The translations under genes were made by a program, and so were the position numbers. A stretch of 64,000 nt of DNA from Medicago truncatula (lineage: Eukaryota > Streptophyta > Magnoliopsida > Fabales > Fabaceae), in assembly GCF_003473485.1 (NCBI RefSeq), contig NC_053047.1, positions 8,075,001 through 8,139,000 on the forward strand. The letters run 5' to 3'. Below, piece by piece: positions 6,846 to 58,736 of the stretch. The notes under the pieces are model-generated. The model was given only the letters and a program-made list of their open reading frames with translations, had not been told where the DNA came from and did no database searches. Position 1 is the first letter of the stretch. Each line of letters opens with the position of its first letter.

Positions 6846-8036
6846 TTTGACCCTTAGCATCATCTAATTTCATTTTCCGCTGTTGATGTGATCAGTCTCA
6901 TTCTGCTTGCGCTTATTAGATATCTGAATAACAAATATCCAACAAAATAACTAATAAACAAATTTGAAGAAATTCAGAACCAATTGTAAAGACTTAACCC
7001 ATCAATCACTTGCAACCATTTATACAAAGAATAAAGAAGTAAGCAACTCAAGTATGCAAGGAAATTGAAAAAGTTTACCTCATGGCTTCGAATATCTTAA
7101 TATTTTTACGAGACATCACAAGTAAACTCATATCAGTATCGACATTTTCTTGGCCATTCGTTGTTGATTCTTCGGTCTGTACCACACTAGAAGATATTTC
7201 TTTTTCAACATTAGAATCTGCTGAAATATATGTAATAGCACCCTGAAGTGAATCGTCTTTTCCAACACCAGGAAGCGGAAGAAATTCCTCTGTGGCAGCA
7301 GATTGCAAGTGGTTGATAGTCTTTGCATTGTCGGAAATGTAGCCTTCTTCATCGTAGTTAACAAAAGGTGACAAGTGAGGTGGAGGAGTCCTGTTAACAA
7401 AAGAAACGCAAGAATAACAAAAAACAATGATTCCCTTTGTACTGGAGTAATTAGGCCAAAACAGTGCAAATAATGACATAGAAATCAATCATATAAATGA
7501 TTTCATAAATAAGTTCAAGAGATATAGCATCAATAAAAAAGTCTAATAATCTTTGTTGTGTTACGTGCACAACATCCCCATATTATTAATTTTTTTACTT
7601 TCTTATAAATTTAATTTGAAAAGAAACTTGAAATAAAATTAGGAAAATAATGTGTCTCATACTTCCCAATTATGACAGAAACAATACTTTCAAATAATTG
7701 TGTTTGTCAAGACTATCAAAAGGTCTTACCTCCCTAATCAAGAAGAATTTGAGATTTTTGAAGAGATTTTTACATTCTCTTGTATCTTGATCCTCTTCAT
7801 CTTCACGGCTAAGTCTTAAACCAGGTGCATCCGTGCACCAGGTTCATTGTGAAGAAGATAGGATATTACTGTCTTCAAATTTGCACTTTCTTAAAGGAAA
7901 TATAGAAGTTACAAATAATGATCAAATTTTTTACAAATTCCAAGTATTATATACCTTCGGATTTTGTGTACAAGATCTACATCAATTTTCTTGCTCTTTG
8001 ACGCAGGTAATGCTCCAAAGAGATTTACCATTGTAA
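6846..8036 (-). pseudogene. Pescadillo (PES) pseudogene, block B, unit 1
   Basis: Two parts of the PES gene remain. A mid-protein exon at about 8036-7945 reads TMVNLFGALPASKSKKID, matching the family motif TMVHLFAALPAS. The post-BRCT exon at about 7412-7075 reads PPPHLSPFVNYDEEGYIS and later MSRKNIKIFEAM. Tail codons near 6925-6846 are frameshifted by a one-base loss in the run tgttgatgtg. The BRCT domain itself is missing, so this cannot make a working protein. Confidence 0.8.
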
Positions 8037-8663: not shown

Positions 8664-9246
8664 TTGACCCTTTGCTTCATGTAATTTCATTTTCCGCTGT
8701 TTGATGCGATCAGTCTCATTCCGCTTGCGCTTATTAGATATCTGTAACAGATTTACAACAAAATAAGTAATAAACAAAGTTGAAGAAATTCAAAATCAAT
8801 GGTAAAGATTTAACCCGTCAATCACTTTGCAACCATTTATGTAGAGGATAAAGAAGTAAGCAACTCAAGTATGCATAAGGAGATGGAAAAGTTTACCTTC
8901 ATGGTTCGAATATCTTTCTATTTTTATTAGACATCTCAAATAAACTCATTTCAGTATCGATATTTTCTTGGCCATTCGTTGTTGATTCTCCGGTCTGTAC
9001 CACACAAGATGTTTCTTTTTCGACATTAGAATCTACCGAAGTATATGTAATAGAACCCTGAAGTGATTCTTCTTTTCCAACACCATAAAGCAGAAGAAAT
9101 TCCTTTATGGCAGCAGCTTGCAAGTTGATAGTCTTTCCATAGTCGAGAATGTAGCCTTCTTCATCGTAGTTAGCAAAATTTCCATAGTCGAGAATGTAGC
9201 CTTCTTCATCGTAGTTAACAAAATTGCAAGTGTGGTGGAGGAACAT
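8664..9246 (-). pseudogene. Pescadillo (PES) pseudogene, block C, unit 1
   Basis: Third PES fragment of the unit: only the post-BRCT exon (9246-8899) and the basic tail (SNKRKRNETDRIKQRKMK, near 8735-8664). The exon carries a 45 bp tandem duplication (9136-9180 and 9181-9225), giving NYDEEGYILDYG twice. A one-codon loss (INLQ instead of INHLQ) separates it from units 2 and 3. It lies next to the MBD4-like promoter fragment. Confidence 0.8.
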
Positions 9247-9339
9247 TTTACGTTTTTAACATTTAGACAATTAAAATTTCAAAAGGTTTTTTTTAAGATG
9301 AAAATAAAAAAGAAGTTATAAAAGAAAATAAATTGGTTA

Positions 9340-9895
9340 GTAGGTAGGTAGGTAAGGTTCATAGCTTAAACCATTTCTCATTCTCATCACTACTGCCTTT
9401 ACACTTTCCAGCGCGCGCACTCTCTCTCTCCATTTCTGACCTGACCCATTTAGCTCATTTCCAGATCAAAATCTTAGTGATTAGTGGTGACAGAAACATT
9501 TCGGTGGTGTTAGGTATTGATTTCATTGAAACACATCTCTTTTTTGTCTCATGTTTTTCTTTTTTATATTATTCTGTCTCTCTTTTATTCCTTCTTCGTC
9601 AGTTATTATGTTTATTGGTGTCAGACACCGAACACGTCTTTGATCTGAATTGTCGGTGTTACTGAACACGGCCTCTATTTACTTGTTGGGTGGTTTTTTT
9701 TAGTTTTCTTTCTTACTTTTTAAATTCAAATTTTTCTGTTACACAAGGAAGAATGGAAAGTAAGAATTCAAAGATGTGGGCAATTCTTTCAACGAGTTTG
9801 CGTATGTCAACAATCCTTTCGGTGAGTACGCGTATAAGGGAAATCATCTTAGAAAGAGTGAAGTTGAAGAGGATTCTTGTCGTACTAGGAAGGTT
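9340..9895 (+). pseudogene. MBD4-like DNA glycosylase 5' fragment, unit 1 (truncated)
   Basis: Upstream region plus the first coding stretch of the gene that runs longer at 33740-34977. The ATG is at 9753 (MESKNSK). After seven codons a one-base loss shifts the frame; the other frame then reads the expected GNPFNEF. Homology ends abruptly at 9895, where a 30 bp tandem repeat and DEF2 sequence begin. It lacks all catalytic sequence. Confidence 0.75.
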
Positions 9896-10971: not shown

Positions 10972-11608
10972 TGATTATTCATGATTGCTTGACACTTTCA
11001 ATCAGATTTTTAAATACTTGATTGTAAATTCTAATTGAAATAATCTTGGTAAAATTTACTTTTCTCTCGATCAAATTATATATCACTATGGCCATCTTCC
11101 CTTATGAATTGAAGAAGGAAAACATAAAAACAAATCTTAAATTTGATGCAACAATTTTTTTTCTATTTAGAAAAAAATAGAAATATAGCATTGGAAAATG
11201 ATGAAAAGTGATAAATTTAACTTTTTAAAAGTCAAAATATTGTTGAAACCAATGCAGACATGCTACTTTTGGCTTCCTTAATCATTGCCCCGAGGGCAAT
11301 GGTTAGCAAGACCTTAATAATAATAATAATAATAATAATTTTGTCAAAAAAATAATATACTAATAATAAAAAAGTTTTTCTATCATATGCAAATTAATTT
11401 AAAATAGTAATTTTGTTACCTATCGAGTGAGACACCAAATCAGCACTTCAGGGGTGCATGTATTGGTTCATCTCGCAAACAAGAATGTGACTATGGTTGC
11501 AGGAGAGGAGAAGGCTGGAGAGGAGGTTATTGCAAAAAGCAGAAATGTGTTTGTGACTGTACATGTATTGGTGCATGTATAAATTATGATCATCTCCTAC
11601 ATAAATAA
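10639..11608 (+). pseudogene. Defensin-like pseudogene DEF2, unit 1
   Basis: Exon 1 (10639-10696) and its TATA box (10563) are identical to those of DEF1, with an intact GTAAGT donor. The exon 2 relic (about 11421-11608) keeps seven of the eight cysteines (ACIGS, ECDYGC, GGYC, KCVCDC). A deletion has removed the splice acceptor, the VVAQ region and the codon for cysteine 1, so the expected mRNA cannot form. The reading frame continues past the usual end and adds TCIGAC before a stop at 11606. Confidence 0.75.
10915..10972. repeat. AT microsatellite in DEF2 intron, unit 1
   Basis: Interrupted tatata/catata tract ending in a pure (at) run. Confidence 0.9.
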
Positions 11609-21446: not shown

Positions 21447-21539
21447 TTTAAGTTTTTAACATTTAGACAATTAAAATTTCAAAAGGTTTTTTTTAAGATG
21501 AAAATAAAAAAGAAGTTATAAAAGAAAATAAATTGGTTA

Positions 21540-22095
21540 GTAGGTAGGTAGGTAAGGTTCATAGCTTAAACCATTTCTCATTCTCATCACTACTGCCTTT
21601 ACACTTTCCAGCGCGCGCACTCTCTCTCTCCATTTCTGACCTGACCCATTTAGCTCATTTCCAGATCAAAATCTTAGTGATTAGTGGTGACAGAAACATT
21701 TCGGTGGTGTTAGGTATTGATTTCATTGAAACACATCTCTTTTTTGTCTCATGTTTTTCTTTTTTATATTATTCTGTCTCTCTTTTATTCCTTCTTCGTT
21801 AGTTATTATGTTTATTGGTGTCAGACACCGAACACGTCTTTGATCTGAATTGTCGGTGTTACTGAACACGGCCTCTATTTACTTGTTGGGTGGTTTTTTT
21901 TAGTTTTCTTTCTTACTTTTTAAATTCAAATTTTTCTGTTACACAAGGAAGAATGGAAAGTAAGAATTCAAAGATGTGGGCAATTCTTTCAACGAGTTTG
22001 CGTATGTCAACAATCCTTTCGGTGAGTACGCGTATAAGGGAAATCATCTTAGAAAGAGTGAAGTTGAAGAGGATTCTTGTCGTACTAGGAAGGTT
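21540..22095 (+). pseudogene. MBD4-like DNA glycosylase 5' fragment, unit 2 (truncated)
   Basis: Array copy of the fragment at 9340, with ATG at 21953, the same frameshift and the same abrupt end. Confidence 0.75.
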
Positions 22096-32694: not shown

Positions 32695-33067
32695 GATAGT
32701 CGTCCAATTATCCAAGTGGGTCCACAAATCTTGGGTACCTATAATACATAGAAAAATCAAATAAACTGGAAAATTTTATTAAACAGAAAACAAAAAGCCA
32801 AAAACAAAGCTAGAGACCTAAGGATAACGGAAAGAAGGAAGTCTGTATCTGTCTCTATAAAAATTATCTCAAAAAATATAAATGGACATGTATTAGACAA
32901 AATACAAAAAAATATATATGAACAAGATTTCTGAGAATTCAAACTCTTGACATAAAATTATGTGGTTTGCAATTGCAGTTGCACACATTCATGTTGGTCT
33001 TATTCCAAGAAGAGAGAAAAAATTATTAAAATTTCAGAAACTGTAAAATTGTGTCAGATATCAAGTA

Positions 33068-33646
33068 ATTTCATGTAATTTCATTTTCCGCTGTTTGATG
33101 TGATCAGTCTCATTCCGCTTGCACTTATTAGATATCTGAATAACAGATTTACAACAAAATAAGTAATAAACAAAGTTGAAGAAATTCAAAATCAATGGTA
33201 AAGATTTAACCCGTCAATCACTTTGCAACCATTTATGTAGAGGATAAAGAAGTAAGCAACTCAAGTATGCATAAGGAGATGGAAAAAGTTTACCTTCATG
33301 GTTCGAATATCTTTCTATTTTTATTAGACATCTCAAATAAACTCATTTCAGTATCGATATTTTCTTGGCCATTCGTTGTTGATTCTCCGGTCTGTACCAC
33401 ACAAGATGTTTCTTTTTCGACATTAGAATCTACCGAAGTATACGTAATAGAACCCTGAAGTGATTCTTCTTTTCCAACACCATAAAGCAGAAGAAATTCC
33501 TTTATGGCAGCAGCTTGCAAGTGGTTGATAGTCTTTCCATAGTCGAGAATGTAGCCTTCTTCATCGTAGTTAGCAAAATTTCCATAGTCGAGAATGTAGC
33601 CTTCTTCATCGTAGTTAACAAAATTGCAAGTGTGGTGGAGGAACAT
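33068..33646 (-). pseudogene. Pescadillo (PES) pseudogene, block C, unit 3
   Basis: Array copy of block C with the 45 bp duplication; the exon lies at 33646-33296. A deletion just beyond its tail (junction near 33062) removes about 280 bp of 3' flank present in units 1 and 2. Confidence 0.8.
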
Positions 33647-33739
33647 TTTAAGTTTTTAACATTTAGACAATTAAAATTTCAAAAGTTTTTTTTTAAGATG
33701 AAAATAAAAAAGAAGTTATAAAAGAAAATAAATTGGTTA

Positions 33740-34977
33740 GTAGGTAGGTAGGTAAGGTTCATAGCTTAAACCATTTCTCCCATTTCTCATTCCCATCACT
33801 ACTGCCTTTACACTTTCCAGCGCGCGCACTCTCTCTCTCCATTTCTCACTCTCTCTCTCCATTTCTGACCTGACCCATTTAGCTCATTTCCAGATCAAAA
33901 TCTTAGTGATTAGTGGTGACAGAAACATTTCGGTGGTGTTAGGTATTGATTTCATTGAAACACATCTCTTTTTTGTCTCATGTTTTTCTTTTTTATATTG
34001 TTCTGTCTCTTTTTTATTCCTTCTTCGTCAGTTATTATGTTTATTGGTGTCAGACACCGAACACGTCTTTGATCTTAATTGTCGGTGTTACTGAACACGG
34101 CCTCTATTTACTTGTTGGGTGGTTTTTTTTAGTTTTCTTTCTTACTTTTTAAATTCAAATTTTTATGTTACACAAGGAAGAATGGAAAGTAAGAATTCAA
34201 AGATGTGGGCAATCCTTTCAACGAGTTTGCGTATGTCGACAATCCTTTCGGTGAGTACGCGTATAAGGGAAATCATCTTAGAAAGAGTGAAGTTGAAGAG
34301 GATTCTTGTCGTACTAGGAAGGTTTTGAAATATTTTCAAAAAGTCAAACACGAGTGTAGAGTGGAGCATCAAAAGAGAGTTATCTCTCGTTATTTTCAAA
34401 ACAAACGTGGTAGGAAGGATTTTGATGATGTTTCTAGATATTTTTTATGTCAGAGCAGAACATTTGATGAAAACTTGAAAGTGGAAGAGGATTCTTGTCG
34501 TATAAGGAAGGTTTCAAAATATTCTCAGAAAGACGAACAAGAGTCTAAAATGGAGCATCCAAATAGGGTGGTATCTTCGTGTTTTCAAAACTGTTCTACG
34601 AAGAGCATTGAAGAATTTTTAAATCAGTTTAAATATCAGAATAAAAGTGTGTCAAGTCTCAGAAAGTGTGTTAAGAAGAGTGAACATGAAGGAACTTTTG
34701 AAGAGGATTCATCTCCTCTTCCTCCTAAGATTTCCAAAGACTCCGAAAGAGACCGAAAGTTGAAAAGCCTAGAAAATCCGAAAGAAAAACTAAACCTTTT
34801 ATAAAGGCTGATAGATGTAGGGAGGCTTACAAAAGGAAAACGCCGGATAATAATTGGGTGAATCCACGTTCTACACGTCCTATCCTTGAAGAGCCTCTTC
34901 TTTAAGAGTATCATTTACATGATCCATGGAGGGTGACTGTTATATGTATGCTATTGAACCGCACTAAAGGTGTTAAG
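33740..34977 (+). pseudogene. MBD4-like DNA glycosylase pseudogene, plus-strand arm (unit 3)
   Basis: 5' part of a plant homologue of MBD4, a nuclear base-excision-repair glycosylase acting on T or U mispaired with G. Coding begins at about 34192 (MESKNSK). The N-terminal region carries repeated KVSKYFQ/VSRYFQ-type motifs, as in plant MBD4-like proteins. It then enters the start of the HhH-GPD glycosylase fold: REAYKRKTPDNNWV, HDPWRV, CMLLNRTKG. Lesions: one-base losses near 34203 and 34742, and a stop TAA at 34903-34905. Homology stops at a GT after codon 'GTTAAG', the likely end of this exon; later exons with the catalytic Asp are absent. The identification is by recognised motifs. Confidence 0.8.
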
Positions 34978-35429
34978 GTACATTCATCGAAGTATTTCCT
35001 TAGTTTTTCTTTATTGCATCCCTTATATTTTATACCGATGTTTTACTGTCGGTTTATGATATTGTATCTTTCTATTTTAGTGATTAATAAATATTGTTTC
35101 TTATTTGCTTTAGAAAGGTTTACTGCTATTGTTCGTTATTTTGGCTTTCTAAACTGTTAATCGTCTTCATATCGTAATGCTATAATGTCATATTTGAAAT
35201 TTATCCTCTTGAGGGCCCTGCTTAGCAAATTATAATAAAGAATTTGGTGTTGAACTTCCGCTTCTGTTAGAAGCTTATTGATGACTACATGTTGAAAGAG
35301 ATGCAAACCGTTAGCATATGTTGAGTTTTATTGAATTACTCCCAATCCCTATGAATTAGTAAACACAAGTTAACATAAACAGAAAAATCCTTATGAGTCA
35401 TTTTGAATTCATCGTAAAGAAGAACAGTG

Positions 35430-36510
35430 GCTTCCTTTTTCTCTGTTTTCCTGGGCTTTTCAACTTTCGGTCTCTTTCGAGAGTCTGTGGAAATCTTAGG
35501 AGGAAGAGGAGATGAATCCTCTTCAACAGTTCCTTCATGTTCAATCTTCTTAACACACTTCCTAAGACTTAACACACTTTTACTTTGATATTTAAATTGA
35601 CTTAAAAATTCTTTAATGCTCTTCGTAGAACAGTTTAGAAAACAAGGAAATACCACCCTCTTTGGAGTCTCCATTTTAGACTTTTGTTAGCTTTCTGAGA
35701 ATATTTTGAAACCTTACGAATATGACAAGTATCGTCTTCCACTTTCAAGTTTTCATCAAATGTTCTGTATTGACATAAAAAATCTTTAGAAACGTCATCA
35801 GAATCCTTCCTACTACGTTTCTTCTGAAAATAACGAGACACAACTCTCTTTGGATGCTCCACTTTATACTCGTGTTCGACTTTCTGAAAATATTTCGAGA
35901 CCTTCCCAGTACGACAAGAATCCTCCTCAACTTCACTCTTTCTAAGATGATTTCCCTTATACGCATACTCACTGAAAGGATTTTTGAAATACGCAAATTC
36001 GTTGAAAGGATTGCCCACATTCTTTGAATGCTTACTTTCCATTCTTCCTTGTGTAACAGAAAAATTTGAAGTTAAAAAATAAGAAAGAAAACTAAAAAAC
36101 CACTCAACAAGTAAACAAGTAAATAGAGGTCGTAACACCGACACTTCAAATCGAAGACGTGTCCGGTGTCCGACACCAAAAAACATAATAAGTGACGAAG
36201 AAGCAAGAAAAAAGAAACAGAACAATATAAAAAAAAAAACAAGAAACAACCAAGAGACGTGATTCAATGAAATCAATACCTGGCACCGCCAGAATGTTCG
36301 TGTCACCACCGGTTACCAAGATTTTGACCAGAAAATGAGATAAATGGGTCCGATCATAAATGGGGAGAGAGAGAGCGCGCTAGAATGTGTAAATAGAGTA
36401 GTGATGAGAATGACAAATGGTTAAAGCTGGGATATAATGTGAAATCAATACCTATTAACCATTTATTTTCTTTTATAACTTCTTTTTTATTTTTATCTTA
36501 AAAATAACTT
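35430..36510 (-). pseudogene. MBD4-like DNA glycosylase pseudogene, inverted arm
   Basis: Minus-strand copy of 33690-34790, roughly 90% similar over the parts compared by eye. It includes the upstream region (36510-36040) and coding sequence from the ATG near 36042 (MESKHSKNVGNPFNEF), which here keeps the original frame at the site broken in the plus arm. It breaks later, after YSQK near 35690, and resumes in another frame (CFLNCSTKSIKEFL). It ends near 35430 before the glycosylase domain. Confidence 0.8.
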
Positions 36511-36599
36511 TTGGATTTTTTATTGCTCCATAATGTGATTATAATTTTCCCTATTAACAAAAGAAACATTTTAAGTTTTTAACATTTAGACAATTAAAT

Positions 36600-38130
36600 T
36601 TTCAACTAGAAACAATAATCAAACAAAATGAAAAGAAAAAAGGATGCGTGGATTTGTGTTTCCACAAGAAGATATCCCTGGAAGAAAACACAAATTTGCT
36701 CAGAATATAATATAGGACACTCCAACCAAGATTGCTACAACAAATAAGAACCCAAACGAACCCAAAACAATAAGCACGGAAAATGGAAACAAATTACCTT
36801 CCCACTATATAATTTTATGTCGGCAAAATTATGCGTGTATTCACACAATCAAATATCCACTGTGGTTGGAGATATGAAAGCAATAGCTTGGTGAATACAA
36901 AAGGAAGGCTTGAAAATTTATGGTACATAGAAGATGATATGCTTAATCACAAACCTGATGAGTAATTCTCTGGTCAGATTCATCGAAAGGCACCCCCTTT
37001 CCGACCCAAGAAACAGTACCACCAAATGCAGGAATAACAAAAAGCAATGACTCCTATTGTACCTGAGTAATTAGGACAAAACCGTGCAAATAATGACATA
37101 GAAATCAATCATATAAATGATTTCATAAATAAGTTCAAGAGATATAGCATCAATAAAAAAGTCTAATAAGCTTTGTTGTGTTACGCGCACAACATCCGTA
37201 TATTATTAAAAAAAAAATATATATATATAAATTTAATTTGAAAAGAAACATGAAATGAAATTAGAAAGAAGTTGGTGGTGAAGTTGAGAAAGTCTTAGTT
37301 CAGATTTTTCATTTTCACCATCTGTGCCTTTTCTCTTGTACTCCACTTGTTTAGAATCATCTAACTGAGAAGCTTCAAATATCAGTCCAGAGGGTTTGGT
37401 CACATTGGCATATCTTGACAGTGCATATAGATCTATAGTTTGAAAAGAGAATTGATCAATGGACTTATAGAGTATCTACACAAATTCAAGTTTCTGAAGG
37501 TCCGTCTAAGTTAAGAAAATGGTACCTGCTGCGAAAGCTTCCAATCGAGTGTCAAGCCTGGGAGGATACTCCAGGTTTATAGAATGATAGAGGCGGAAAT
37601 TTACAAACTGAAGAAGAGGTTGTAGCAATTCATTATGAAATTATGGATATTAGTAAAATGTTAAAAGTCTTAATAATTATGATGACATGAATGTTGATGC
37701 ATCAACAGAACAAAGACAAGATATGAACATTAATATGAAACCAACCTCATAAAATTGCAAAAAAATTAGCATGGTAGGAATGTCAACATCATCGGACACA
37801 ACCTGTTGTAGTAAATGAGGAGTTAACCATGTTATTGTCAGACCCTAAAAAATTTGGCATGGTAGGAAATATAGAAGTTACACATAATGATCAAAATTTA
37901 TACAAATTCCAAGTATTATATACCTTCGGCATTTGTGTACAAGCTCTACATCAATATTCTTGCTCTCTGACGCAGGTAATGCTGCAAAGAGATGCACCAT
38001 TGTAAGACATAACTCATCGTTATTCAAAAAGTACACAGCGCATGGAGGATATATCTCAAAACCATGGTGACTAGCCCAAAAAATGATATGAACAACTATA
38101 TATTCTTGTCTCCTAATAAACTCATACGAG
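36600..38130 (-). pseudogene. Pescadillo (PES) pseudogene, block D (colinear, outside the array)
   Basis: The most complete PES relic here. On the minus strand, in protein order: CLTMVHLFAALPASESKNID followed by VHKCRRY (about 38020-37930); VNFRLYHSINLEYPPRLD (about 37620-37530); LYALSRYANVTKPSG (about 37437-37330); the BRCT start LLFVIPAFGGTVSWVGKG with ITHQ (about 37055-36955); and the BRCT end QWIFDCVNTRIILPT (about 36880-36800), followed at once by a stop in place of a conserved residue. N-terminal and post-BRCT exons are absent; the left end abuts the inverted MBD4-like arm. Intron sequence at 36541-36720 matches the flank of block A. Confidence 0.82.
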
Positions 38131-40599: not shown

Positions 40600-41650
40600 T
40601 AGTTATTTGGTTCAAAGTCCGGTTGCTAATGGCTTGGAGATTTCCTTTTGGAATGAAGCGTGGTTGGAAAACGAGCCTCTTAAAGATCTATTTTCAAGAC
40701 TTTTTTTGGTTTCTAGTGGTCAAGATTTGAAGGTGGGGGAGGTGTGGTTTAATGATGCCTTTGCGTAGGGAGTTGTTTGCTTGGGAAAAGGAGCTTTTAC
40801 AAAGCCTTTTTCTAAGGTTGGAAGGGGTGGAGTTGCGGGAAGGGGACGATTGTTGGTGGTGGAAACCGGAAGAGGGGGGAATCTTTTCCGTGAAGTCTTG
40901 CTACAGCATTTTGCAATGTTTGCGGCTAGTAGAGGGTGGTTTGAGTGGGGAGGTGGAGGTGGTGTTCCAGAACCTTTGGAAGAGTAAGGTACCGGCTAAG
41001 GTGTTGGCTTTTTTGTGGACTTTATTTCTTGATCGTATTCCATCCAAGGTAAATCTTGCGAGAAGAAGGCTTTTGGCAATTGAAGGCTCAAAGAGATGTG
41101 TGTTTTGTGGCCTAGAGGATGAATCGACATTACACTTGTTCTTACATTGCCAAGTTACATGTAGTGTTTGGTTGGAGGTGATGCGGTGGTTGCAATTCTT
41201 TCTTATTAATTCACCTAATTTATTCATCCATATTGATTGTTGGTTGGGCATGTGGTGCAAGAAGAAATGGAGGAGAGGGGCTTGGCTAATTTGGCATTCG
41301 GTTATTTGGGTAATTTGGAATTCTAGAAATGACCGGATTTTCAATGACAAGGTTAAGGAGGTTGATGAAATGGTTGAGGAGATTAAAGTACTCTTGTGGA
41401 ATTGGAGTTTGAATAGACTTAAAATCTCATCTTGCTTATTTTATGAATGGTGTTGGAATCCGAGAGAGTGCTTAGGTAGGTAGTTGATGCAACTTGCTGT
41501 AGGTGGTATTGGTGGCGTTGTTTAGGAGCATTAGCTGTGTTGGCTTAGGTGCTGGTGTTTGTTAGTTTTTGGTAGCTTTTTGGTGGCGGCCTGCCGTTTT
41601 TTCTGCTGTTGGTTATGACAGCCACCTTGTCTCTCCCTTGTATGGGTAAT
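40600..41650 (+). mobile_element. 5'-truncated LINE (ORF2 C-terminus with zf-RVT domain)
   Basis: A frame at 40574-40768 has the LINE motif GLEISFWNEAWLENEPLKDL. Across a frameshift near 40750 the frame 40752-41483 continues with a plant LINE zinc-binding reverse-transcriptase domain (FSVKSCYSIL, LWKSKVPAKVLAFLW, then CVFCGLEDESTLHLFLHC). The reverse-transcriptase core and ORF1 are missing, so it is dead. The 3' UTR-like G/T-rich sequence extends to about 41650. Confidence 0.8.
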
Positions 41651-42370: not shown

Positions 42371-46979
<4,609 letters not shown>

Positions 46980-47140: not shown

Positions 47141-47345
47141 CCTTTGATCTCGAGAGAAATTAAGGTTCAAACGCACAAAACATAACTGTCCCCAAATAAT
47201 TGGACAAGAAGAATCAGTCAAATCATGCACACGTATATTCCAACTTGTTAGCTCAAAAGATTAATTAGAAGGTACAGATTCCTTAAATTAAAAATAGAAT
47301 GCACGATTTTATTTTTTTTTAAGAAAATAATGTACGAATTAAAAA

Positions 47346-47624
47346 CAAATTAAAGTTAAATTGTTGAAAAAAAATAAACATAATTTAGAAGTTATAGGAT
47401 CTAGCAGGTGCATGTTGCACGTATATGATCAAGTGTTAATATATTAGGAGTGACCGGTGGCGGAACCACAATAGGGCTCTGCTATCATCCCACCAAAACC
47501 CTAACGTGCCTTCACCATCAGCCACTCCCAATATAAACACTTAATCATGTGTAAGATGTACCTGCTAAAATCGTATAACTTCTAAATTATTATTTTTTCA
47601 ATAGTTTAGCTTTAATTTATTCTC
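47346..47624. mobile_element. Fold-back element, about 100 bp inverted arms
   Basis: Left arm 47346-47450 and right arm 47524-47624 are imperfect reverse complements (for example taatttagaagttata, then agcaggt and agtgtt, against their complements). The roughly 70 bp centre is less AT-rich. Non-coding, MITE-like. Confidence 0.7.
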
Positions 47625-48181: not shown

Positions 48182-48604
48182 TTAATGATGTGTTTCGTCC
48201 TTGCAATTAGGCGTCATTTAAAAATTAGTCCTTGTAATCGTTAATCCTGGCAATTTACCCTTGCATTATTTAATCATTTAAAATTTCGTCATTTGACCAA
48301 CTTAATCACCGTCAAGTCATCAAATTAGCAAAATGGCACGGGAATGGACAAAAATACCCTCGTCTTTATTATGAGAAGAATATGAAGACAGGGGTAAGAA
48401 TGTCATTTCACAAATGGATGACGAGGGTATTTTTGTCCATTCCCATGCCATTTTGCTAATTTGATGACGTGGCAGTGATTAAGTTGGTCAAATGACGAAA
48501 TTTGAAATGATTAAACAATGCAAGGGTAAATTGCCAGAATTAGCGATTATAGGGACAAATTTATAAATGACACCTAATTGCAAGGACGAAACACATCATT
48601 AAAC
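48182..48604. mobile_element. Fold-back element, about 185 bp inverted arms
   Basis: Arms 48182-48365 and 48421-48604 are near-perfect reverse complements, from taatgatgtgtttcgtcctt at the outer ends to aaaataccctcgtc near the centre. The loop is about 55 bp. The structure resembles a MITE or large snap-back element and would form a strong hairpin if transcribed. Confidence 0.85.
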
Positions 48605-58535: not shown

Positions 58536-58736
58536 GATCGGTAGACACCTTTAATGTGTACACCCTTTTGTATCACTCTGAAAAAATTTCAGTTAATCAA
58601 ATATGTGGTATGTGTGAAGCTGAAAAAATGTGGTCACGCAACTAAAAAATTGTGGTCACACAGACGATATATTTGATTAACTGAAATTTTTCAGAGTGGT
58701 AAAAGAGGGTGTACACATTAAGAATGTCTATCTATC
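58536..58736. mobile_element. MITE with about 65 bp inverted ends
   Basis: The left side gatcggtagacacc to cagttaatcaaatat and the right side atatttgattaactg to gaatgtctatctatc are reverse complements with few mismatches; the centre is about 60 bp. Confidence 0.75.

Follow-up and report, generated by a model that had tools for sequence, protein, structure and literature searches.

A probable decaying fold-back pseudogene of MBD4-like 5' sequence in Medicago truncatula, predicted to form a long hairpin if transcribed

Described inverted repeats and the Medicago locus

The soybean I locus is a 27-kb cluster of inverted chalcone synthase (CHS) sequence with identical 10.91-kb arms, siRNAs and a seed-coat phenotype, in which the inverted gene or pseudogene copies have related intact genes elsewhere (PMC6710647); the GmIRCHS structure of the same system is described as containing pseudoCHS repeats (PMC13051633). 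Arabidopsis has a long endogenous inverted repeat, IR71, which is transcribed and is reported to be diced by DCL2 and DCL3 and secondarily by DCL4 (PMC12825306). Young MIRNA loci, too, are described as originating from inverted copies of genes or pseudogenes, and in rice and Arabidopsis most miRNA genes related to transposable elements or pseudogenes are stated to have arisen by inverted duplication (PMC3237417).

The locus analysed here lies in a 64-kb window (the whole stretch of DNA that was analysed, C6:8075001-8139000) and belongs to this known class of gene-derived endogenous inverted repeats. It resembles the soybean I locus in its inverted pseudogene copies with related intact genes elsewhere, and IR71 in its kilobase-scale dsRNA potential; unlike either, it is known here from its sequence alone, and its arms, in contrast to those of soybean, are 89% alike and hold upstream sequence and exon 1 only. 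It shares inverted duplication with young MIRNA loci but has no defined miRNA, and its arms exceed 1 kb. The source of the arms is the 5' portion of a plant MBD4-like (MBD4L) glycosylase gene, from which they differ in lacking the catalytic domain and in their broken frames. Since plant MBD4L is described as removing uracil derivatives, and thymine with lower efficiency (PMC6728418), the label "demethylation-related" given to the gene by a sequence-only reading of this locus was too strong. Judged on sequence alone, the locus is an ordinary pseudogene rearrangement; it provides a well-dissected case of the conversion of a plant gene fragment into an inverted repeat, with breakpoints, probable insertion site and source family all readable, and a specific test case for whether fold-back pseudogenes matching a repair gene yield small RNAs.

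Anatomy and probable origin of the inverted repeat

The features of the locus, in window positions, are as follows.

33668-34789, plus strand: left arm, 1122 bases; MBD4L-like upstream region (33668-34181), then N-terminal exon 1 from the ATG at 34182
34790-35435, plus strand: spacer or loop, 646 bases; the left copy running on through the end of exon 1 and then intron 1
35436-36525, minus strand: right arm, 1090 bases; inverted exon 1 (ATG at 36042 on the minus strand, with a frameshift of its own) and upstream region
35436-35449, no strand assigned: fold-back junction, an imperfect microhomology matching the right arm at its inner end as well as the intron of the left copy
34290-34402, plus strand: internal tandem duplication, first copy, 189-base spacing
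34479-34591, plus strand: internal tandem duplication, second copy
33639-33682, plus strand: 44-base direct repeat, left copy, of which 33642-33682 matches array unit positions 1039-1078
36562-36605, plus strand: 44-base direct repeat, right copy, inside the array-derived segment 36551-36728

The 1.1 kb inverted arms and 640 bp loop of the sequence-only reading are thus real, with slightly wider arms and a 646-base spacer. Global alignment of the arms yielded 959 matches, 117 mismatches (66 transitions and 51 transversions) and 60 gap columns in 19 gaps, corresponding to an identity of 89.1% ungapped (959/1076) or 84.4% with gaps counted, and including nine perfect runs of at least 21 nt, the longest of 39. 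A divergence of 11% between the arms argues against a chimeric-read assembly artefact.

Related loci were searched for in the 429.9-Mb genome (42 contigs) using 1001 bases of the left arm as the query, and the matches listed were to both arms, to at least four truncated copies in the array and, more weakly, to pieces on C5, C6 and C7. The C5 locus L009 (below, the C5 gene) contains three open exons whose GT/AG splice sites preserve the frame and is apparently an intact three-exon MBD4-like gene; residues 134-272 of its joined exons match the solved human MBD4 glycosylase domain 4dk9 (E 3.8e-32). All three MBD4L exons are also matched at a further C5 locus (L010); at C6:10.9 Mb (L011, 8.5 kb examined) the matches are confined to exon 1 and a portion of the last exon. 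Exon 1 of the MBD4L genes on C5 lies at C5:23765133-23765678 and C5:23678649-23679194. The assignment of both arms to an MBD4-like 5' region is borne out by their match to the first exon of the C5 gene; the arms contain only the upstream region and the N-terminal exon 1, however, and lack the C-terminal MBD4-type glycosylase domain. The left copy, whose exon 1 ends at about 34977 (read by eye), reaches the start of that domain but carries an in-frame TAA at 34903. A protein-coding role of the arms was ruled out by this stop codon, by frameshifts (relative to the right arm, the left arm lacks one base soon after its start codon at 34182 and one more near 34742, both of which shift the frame) and by the lack of a Pfam match (threshold E 0.05) for either arm frame; exon 1 of the C5 gene likewise had no match in this search.

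Colinearity of the left copy with the C5 gene extends from exon 1 into intron 1 as far as position 35449 (87.7% over 34593-35449). The right arm starts at 35436, and the loop therefore belongs to the left copy, of which it is the continuation. As read from these breakpoints, the anatomy is that of a fold-back inverted duplication, and fold-back template switching is the mechanism that we infer. The internal duplication with 189-base spacing is common to both arms and corresponds to a single stretch in three related loci. Within exon 1 the arms differ less from one another (K 0.102) than from the C5 gene (K 0.164 and 0.207 for the two arms), and their identity to related loci is 80-86%. The divergence of the left copy from the C5 gene is uneven (K 0.473 upstream, 0.164 in the N-terminal exon and 0.107 in the remainder of the exon and the intron), which is not explained by one duplication date. 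The lower K of 34593-35449 against the C5 gene (0.107) possibly reflects a mosaic or conversion, or else a poor upstream alignment.

The inverted repeat lies next to an array of units of about 12.2 kb (about 99% identity) that occupies window positions 1-33066 and extends upstream of the window, with a third, rearranged unit preceding the inverted repeat. The units include a defensin-like cysteine-rich frame near 11423-11600 (cysteine pattern recognised by eye), for which the match to a Knot1-domain protein was weak (E 0.061) and a Pfam search gave none. Two copies of left-arm sequence lie in the array within the window.

9268-9895, plus strand: truncated array copy of the outer 5' part of the left arm
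21468-22095, plus strand: second truncated array copy of the outer 5' part of the left arm

Further array copies were found upstream of the window, at C6:8060088 and C6:8072280. The "three array copies" proposed earlier therefore exist as copies but not in that number, there being two in the window besides the left arm itself and two more upstream; and, although further potential targets had been suggested, they are not functional targets, being fragments of the same pseudogene within a defensin-like array. Upstream of the ATG, the array copies differ from one another by K 0-0.002 and from the left arm by 0.012-0.015, and were therefore made from the left arm, or along with it, recently.

The two copies of the 44-base direct repeat, which are 95% alike, bracket the inverted-repeat module. 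In the array unit the same stretch is uninterrupted at 1039-1078 and is followed by sequence matching the right flank (array 1025-1203 against window 36551-36728, 92%); a second stretch of it, at 9239-9282, is part of the captured left-arm junction. The flanks would thus fit an insertion into an array-type unit with target duplication. On the left, however, agreement with the presumed insertion site is only 75% over 124 gapped columns, and the flank there also matches another sub-repeat (6860-7366) at 88.9%. As the similarity of the right arm to the upstream region of the C5 gene extends to 36574, the left outer edge has probably been trimmed or replaced.

The order of events that we infer is as follows. 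An MBD4-like 5' fragment, from the upstream region to intron 1, would already have carried the internal duplication when it was turned into a tail-to-tail inverted duplicate; a fold-back template switch at the short microhomology is the likeliest route. The duplicate would then have come to lie in defensin-like array sequence, with the 44-base target duplication, and later amplification of the array would have carried part of the left arm along. With between 6.5e-9 and 1e-8 substitutions per site and year, the 11-12% arm divergence would correspond to roughly 5.5-9 million years. The locus has since, it appears, decayed as a pseudogene; transcription from the old upstream region of either arm, if any, would give a long hairpin cleavable by Dicer enzymes, and any small RNAs derived from the arms would most likely be incidental. 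The best reading of the locus is put at a probability of about 0.7: a decaying fold-back pseudogene that could supply dsRNA if transcribed.

Predicted hairpin, target similarity and alternative explanations

Folding of 33668-36525 in RNAfold gave -1541.0 kcal/mol for the plus strand, compared with -640.0 +/- 13.1 kcal/mol (s.d.) for eight dinucleotide shuffles, with 972 of the 1122 left-arm bases paired with the right arm. The minus strand, folded without a shuffle comparison, gave -1521.1 kcal/mol with 956/1090 bases paired arm to arm. Either strand is predicted to form one long hairpin, on the plus strand far above chance, which bears out in silico the hairpin potential ascribed to the inverted pseudogenes.

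Target potential was assessed using a custom-written, ungapped score resembling that of psRNATarget, applied to 21-base windows over exon 1 and the 40 bases before it with a cut-off of 3 or lower. Against the arms, this score was reached by 148/554 windows of target C5a, 126/550 of C5b and 139/555 of C6b, and by none in one shuffle of the C5a target; the longest perfect matches between arms and targets were 22-24 nt. The hairpin is thus similar enough to MBD4L exon 1 for 21-mers to match; neither selection on pairing nor past methylation left a positive sign in the comparisons below. Targets of the inverted CHS repeat of soybean are described as including CHS7 and CHS8, which are 81% similar to CHS4 (PMC6710647), and by this analogy an exon 1 identity of 80-86% should be no bar to silencing in principle. 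Silencing of MBD4L by the locus is, on these matches, possible. Among the matches listed in Medicago literature on inverted-repeat or hairpin small RNAs, MBD4 was absent, and a search for literature on long-hairpin gene duplicates found none; the main text of a Medicago root small-RNA paper contains none of the terms "glycosylase", "MBD", "methyl-CpG" and "long hairpin" (PMC4212123).

Signs of use or selection were sought in the differences between the arms. Mismatches are spread evenly across the three codon positions (17/188, 19/186 and 20/187), in a comparison whose final 48 bases lie past a left-arm frameshift and which has little power, since C5a and C5b differ equally evenly (6, 4 and 7 of 172 each). 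Wobble-preserving transitions numbered 34 for the plus and 32 for the minus hairpin (p 0.90, with limited power), so that a bias of wobble-type changes between the arms was absent in either orientation. The arm-arm dN/dS was 0.66, a point estimate below 1 with a wide interval (bootstrap 0.37-1.31). A higher conservation of the exon depends on the alignment and was seen in one of two: with MAFFT the arms differ at 75/474 upstream and 56/592 exon positions (p 0.0019), and in a pairwise alignment at 59/470 and 58/606 (p 0.14). The MAFFT result slightly lowers confidence in simple decay; the exon part of the hairpin may be under constraint, or constraint may have acted while the frames were still open. 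The observed/expected CpG ratio was 0.77 and 0.90 in the arms, 0.75-0.86 in related loci and 0.62 in the window; the arms thus show no CpG depletion relative to either, a weak argument against dense methylation over a long time. At gathering score, Rfam had no match in 33000-37500.

These observations bear differently on the explanations other than a decaying pseudogene. A working endogenous siRNA locus, in which the hairpin would be diced to 21-24 nt RNAs that lower intact MBD4L mRNA as in soybean CHS, would account for the strong predicted fold, for the many exon 1 windows matching the arms where the shuffle had none and for the greater exon conservation in one of two alignments, and it gains from the dicing of IR71 and from the presence of a second, independent MBD4L fold-back (below). 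It is nonetheless quite unlikely, given that wobble bias is absent in both orientations, that Rfam has no match and, as a weaker point, that the arms are not depleted in CpG. An inverted repeat that is transcribed but inconsequential, or an early-stage MIRNA gene, its small RNAs having no selected effect on a target, is unlikely but a little less so. Both the retention in the arms of upstream regions resembling that of the C5 gene and the inverted-duplication origin of so many miRNA genes in rice and Arabidopsis are consistent with this explanation. A typical miRNA stem is, however, much shorter than arms of more than 1 kb.

The inverted termini and the flanking direct repeat could also be those of a fold-back transposable element or MITE that had captured MBD4L sequence. 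DNA-transposon target-site duplications are, however, usually shorter than 44 bases, both arm frames lack a Pfam match, and the whole 1001-base left-arm query matched, among the matches listed, only at this locus. The many dispersed whole copies expected of such an element were absent among the matches listed for this query, and an origin of this kind is highly improbable.

Last-exon fold-backs and other features of the window

In a protein search, the last exon of MBD4L was found as inverted pairs at two further positions on C6.

L025, 4311-5510 (C6:15.22 Mb): inverted repeat of the last exon with flanking introns
L026, 4173-5372 (C6:14.74 Mb): inverted repeat of the last exon with flanking introns

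Both have arms of about 540 bases that are 87% alike, around a spacer of about 132 bases, and the two loci represent one segmental duplication (98.6% over 8.3 kb). Folded without a shuffle comparison, the C6:15.22 Mb and C6:14.74 Mb hairpins gave -711.3 and -700.9 kcal/mol, with 486/538 and 482/538 bases paired arm to arm, and windows scoring 3 or lower against them numbered 48/82 for C5a and 60/76 for C5b. As a different part of the gene is involved, this fold-back probably arose independently of the event in the window. That the 5'-end and last-exon fold-backs would jointly supply dsRNA keeping MBD4L low, and so link the repair of deaminated 5-methylcytosine to RNA silencing, is very unlikely on the evidence of these sequences.

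A scan of the window for other inverted repeats (filter of 100 aligned bases, within 3 kb) returned one sub-match of the MBD4L locus and three palindromes. The latter are fold-backs of MITE-like shape, at 48182-48602 (85.5%), 47344-47621 (73.1%) and 58536-58736 (76.5%). The window also contains a reverse-transcriptase zinc-binding fragment at 40731-41483 (zf-RVT, PF13966, E 7.7e-17) and, on the minus strand at 43895-44125, an exon of a glyceraldehyde 3-phosphate dehydrogenase gene (Gp_dh_C, E 1.3e-17).
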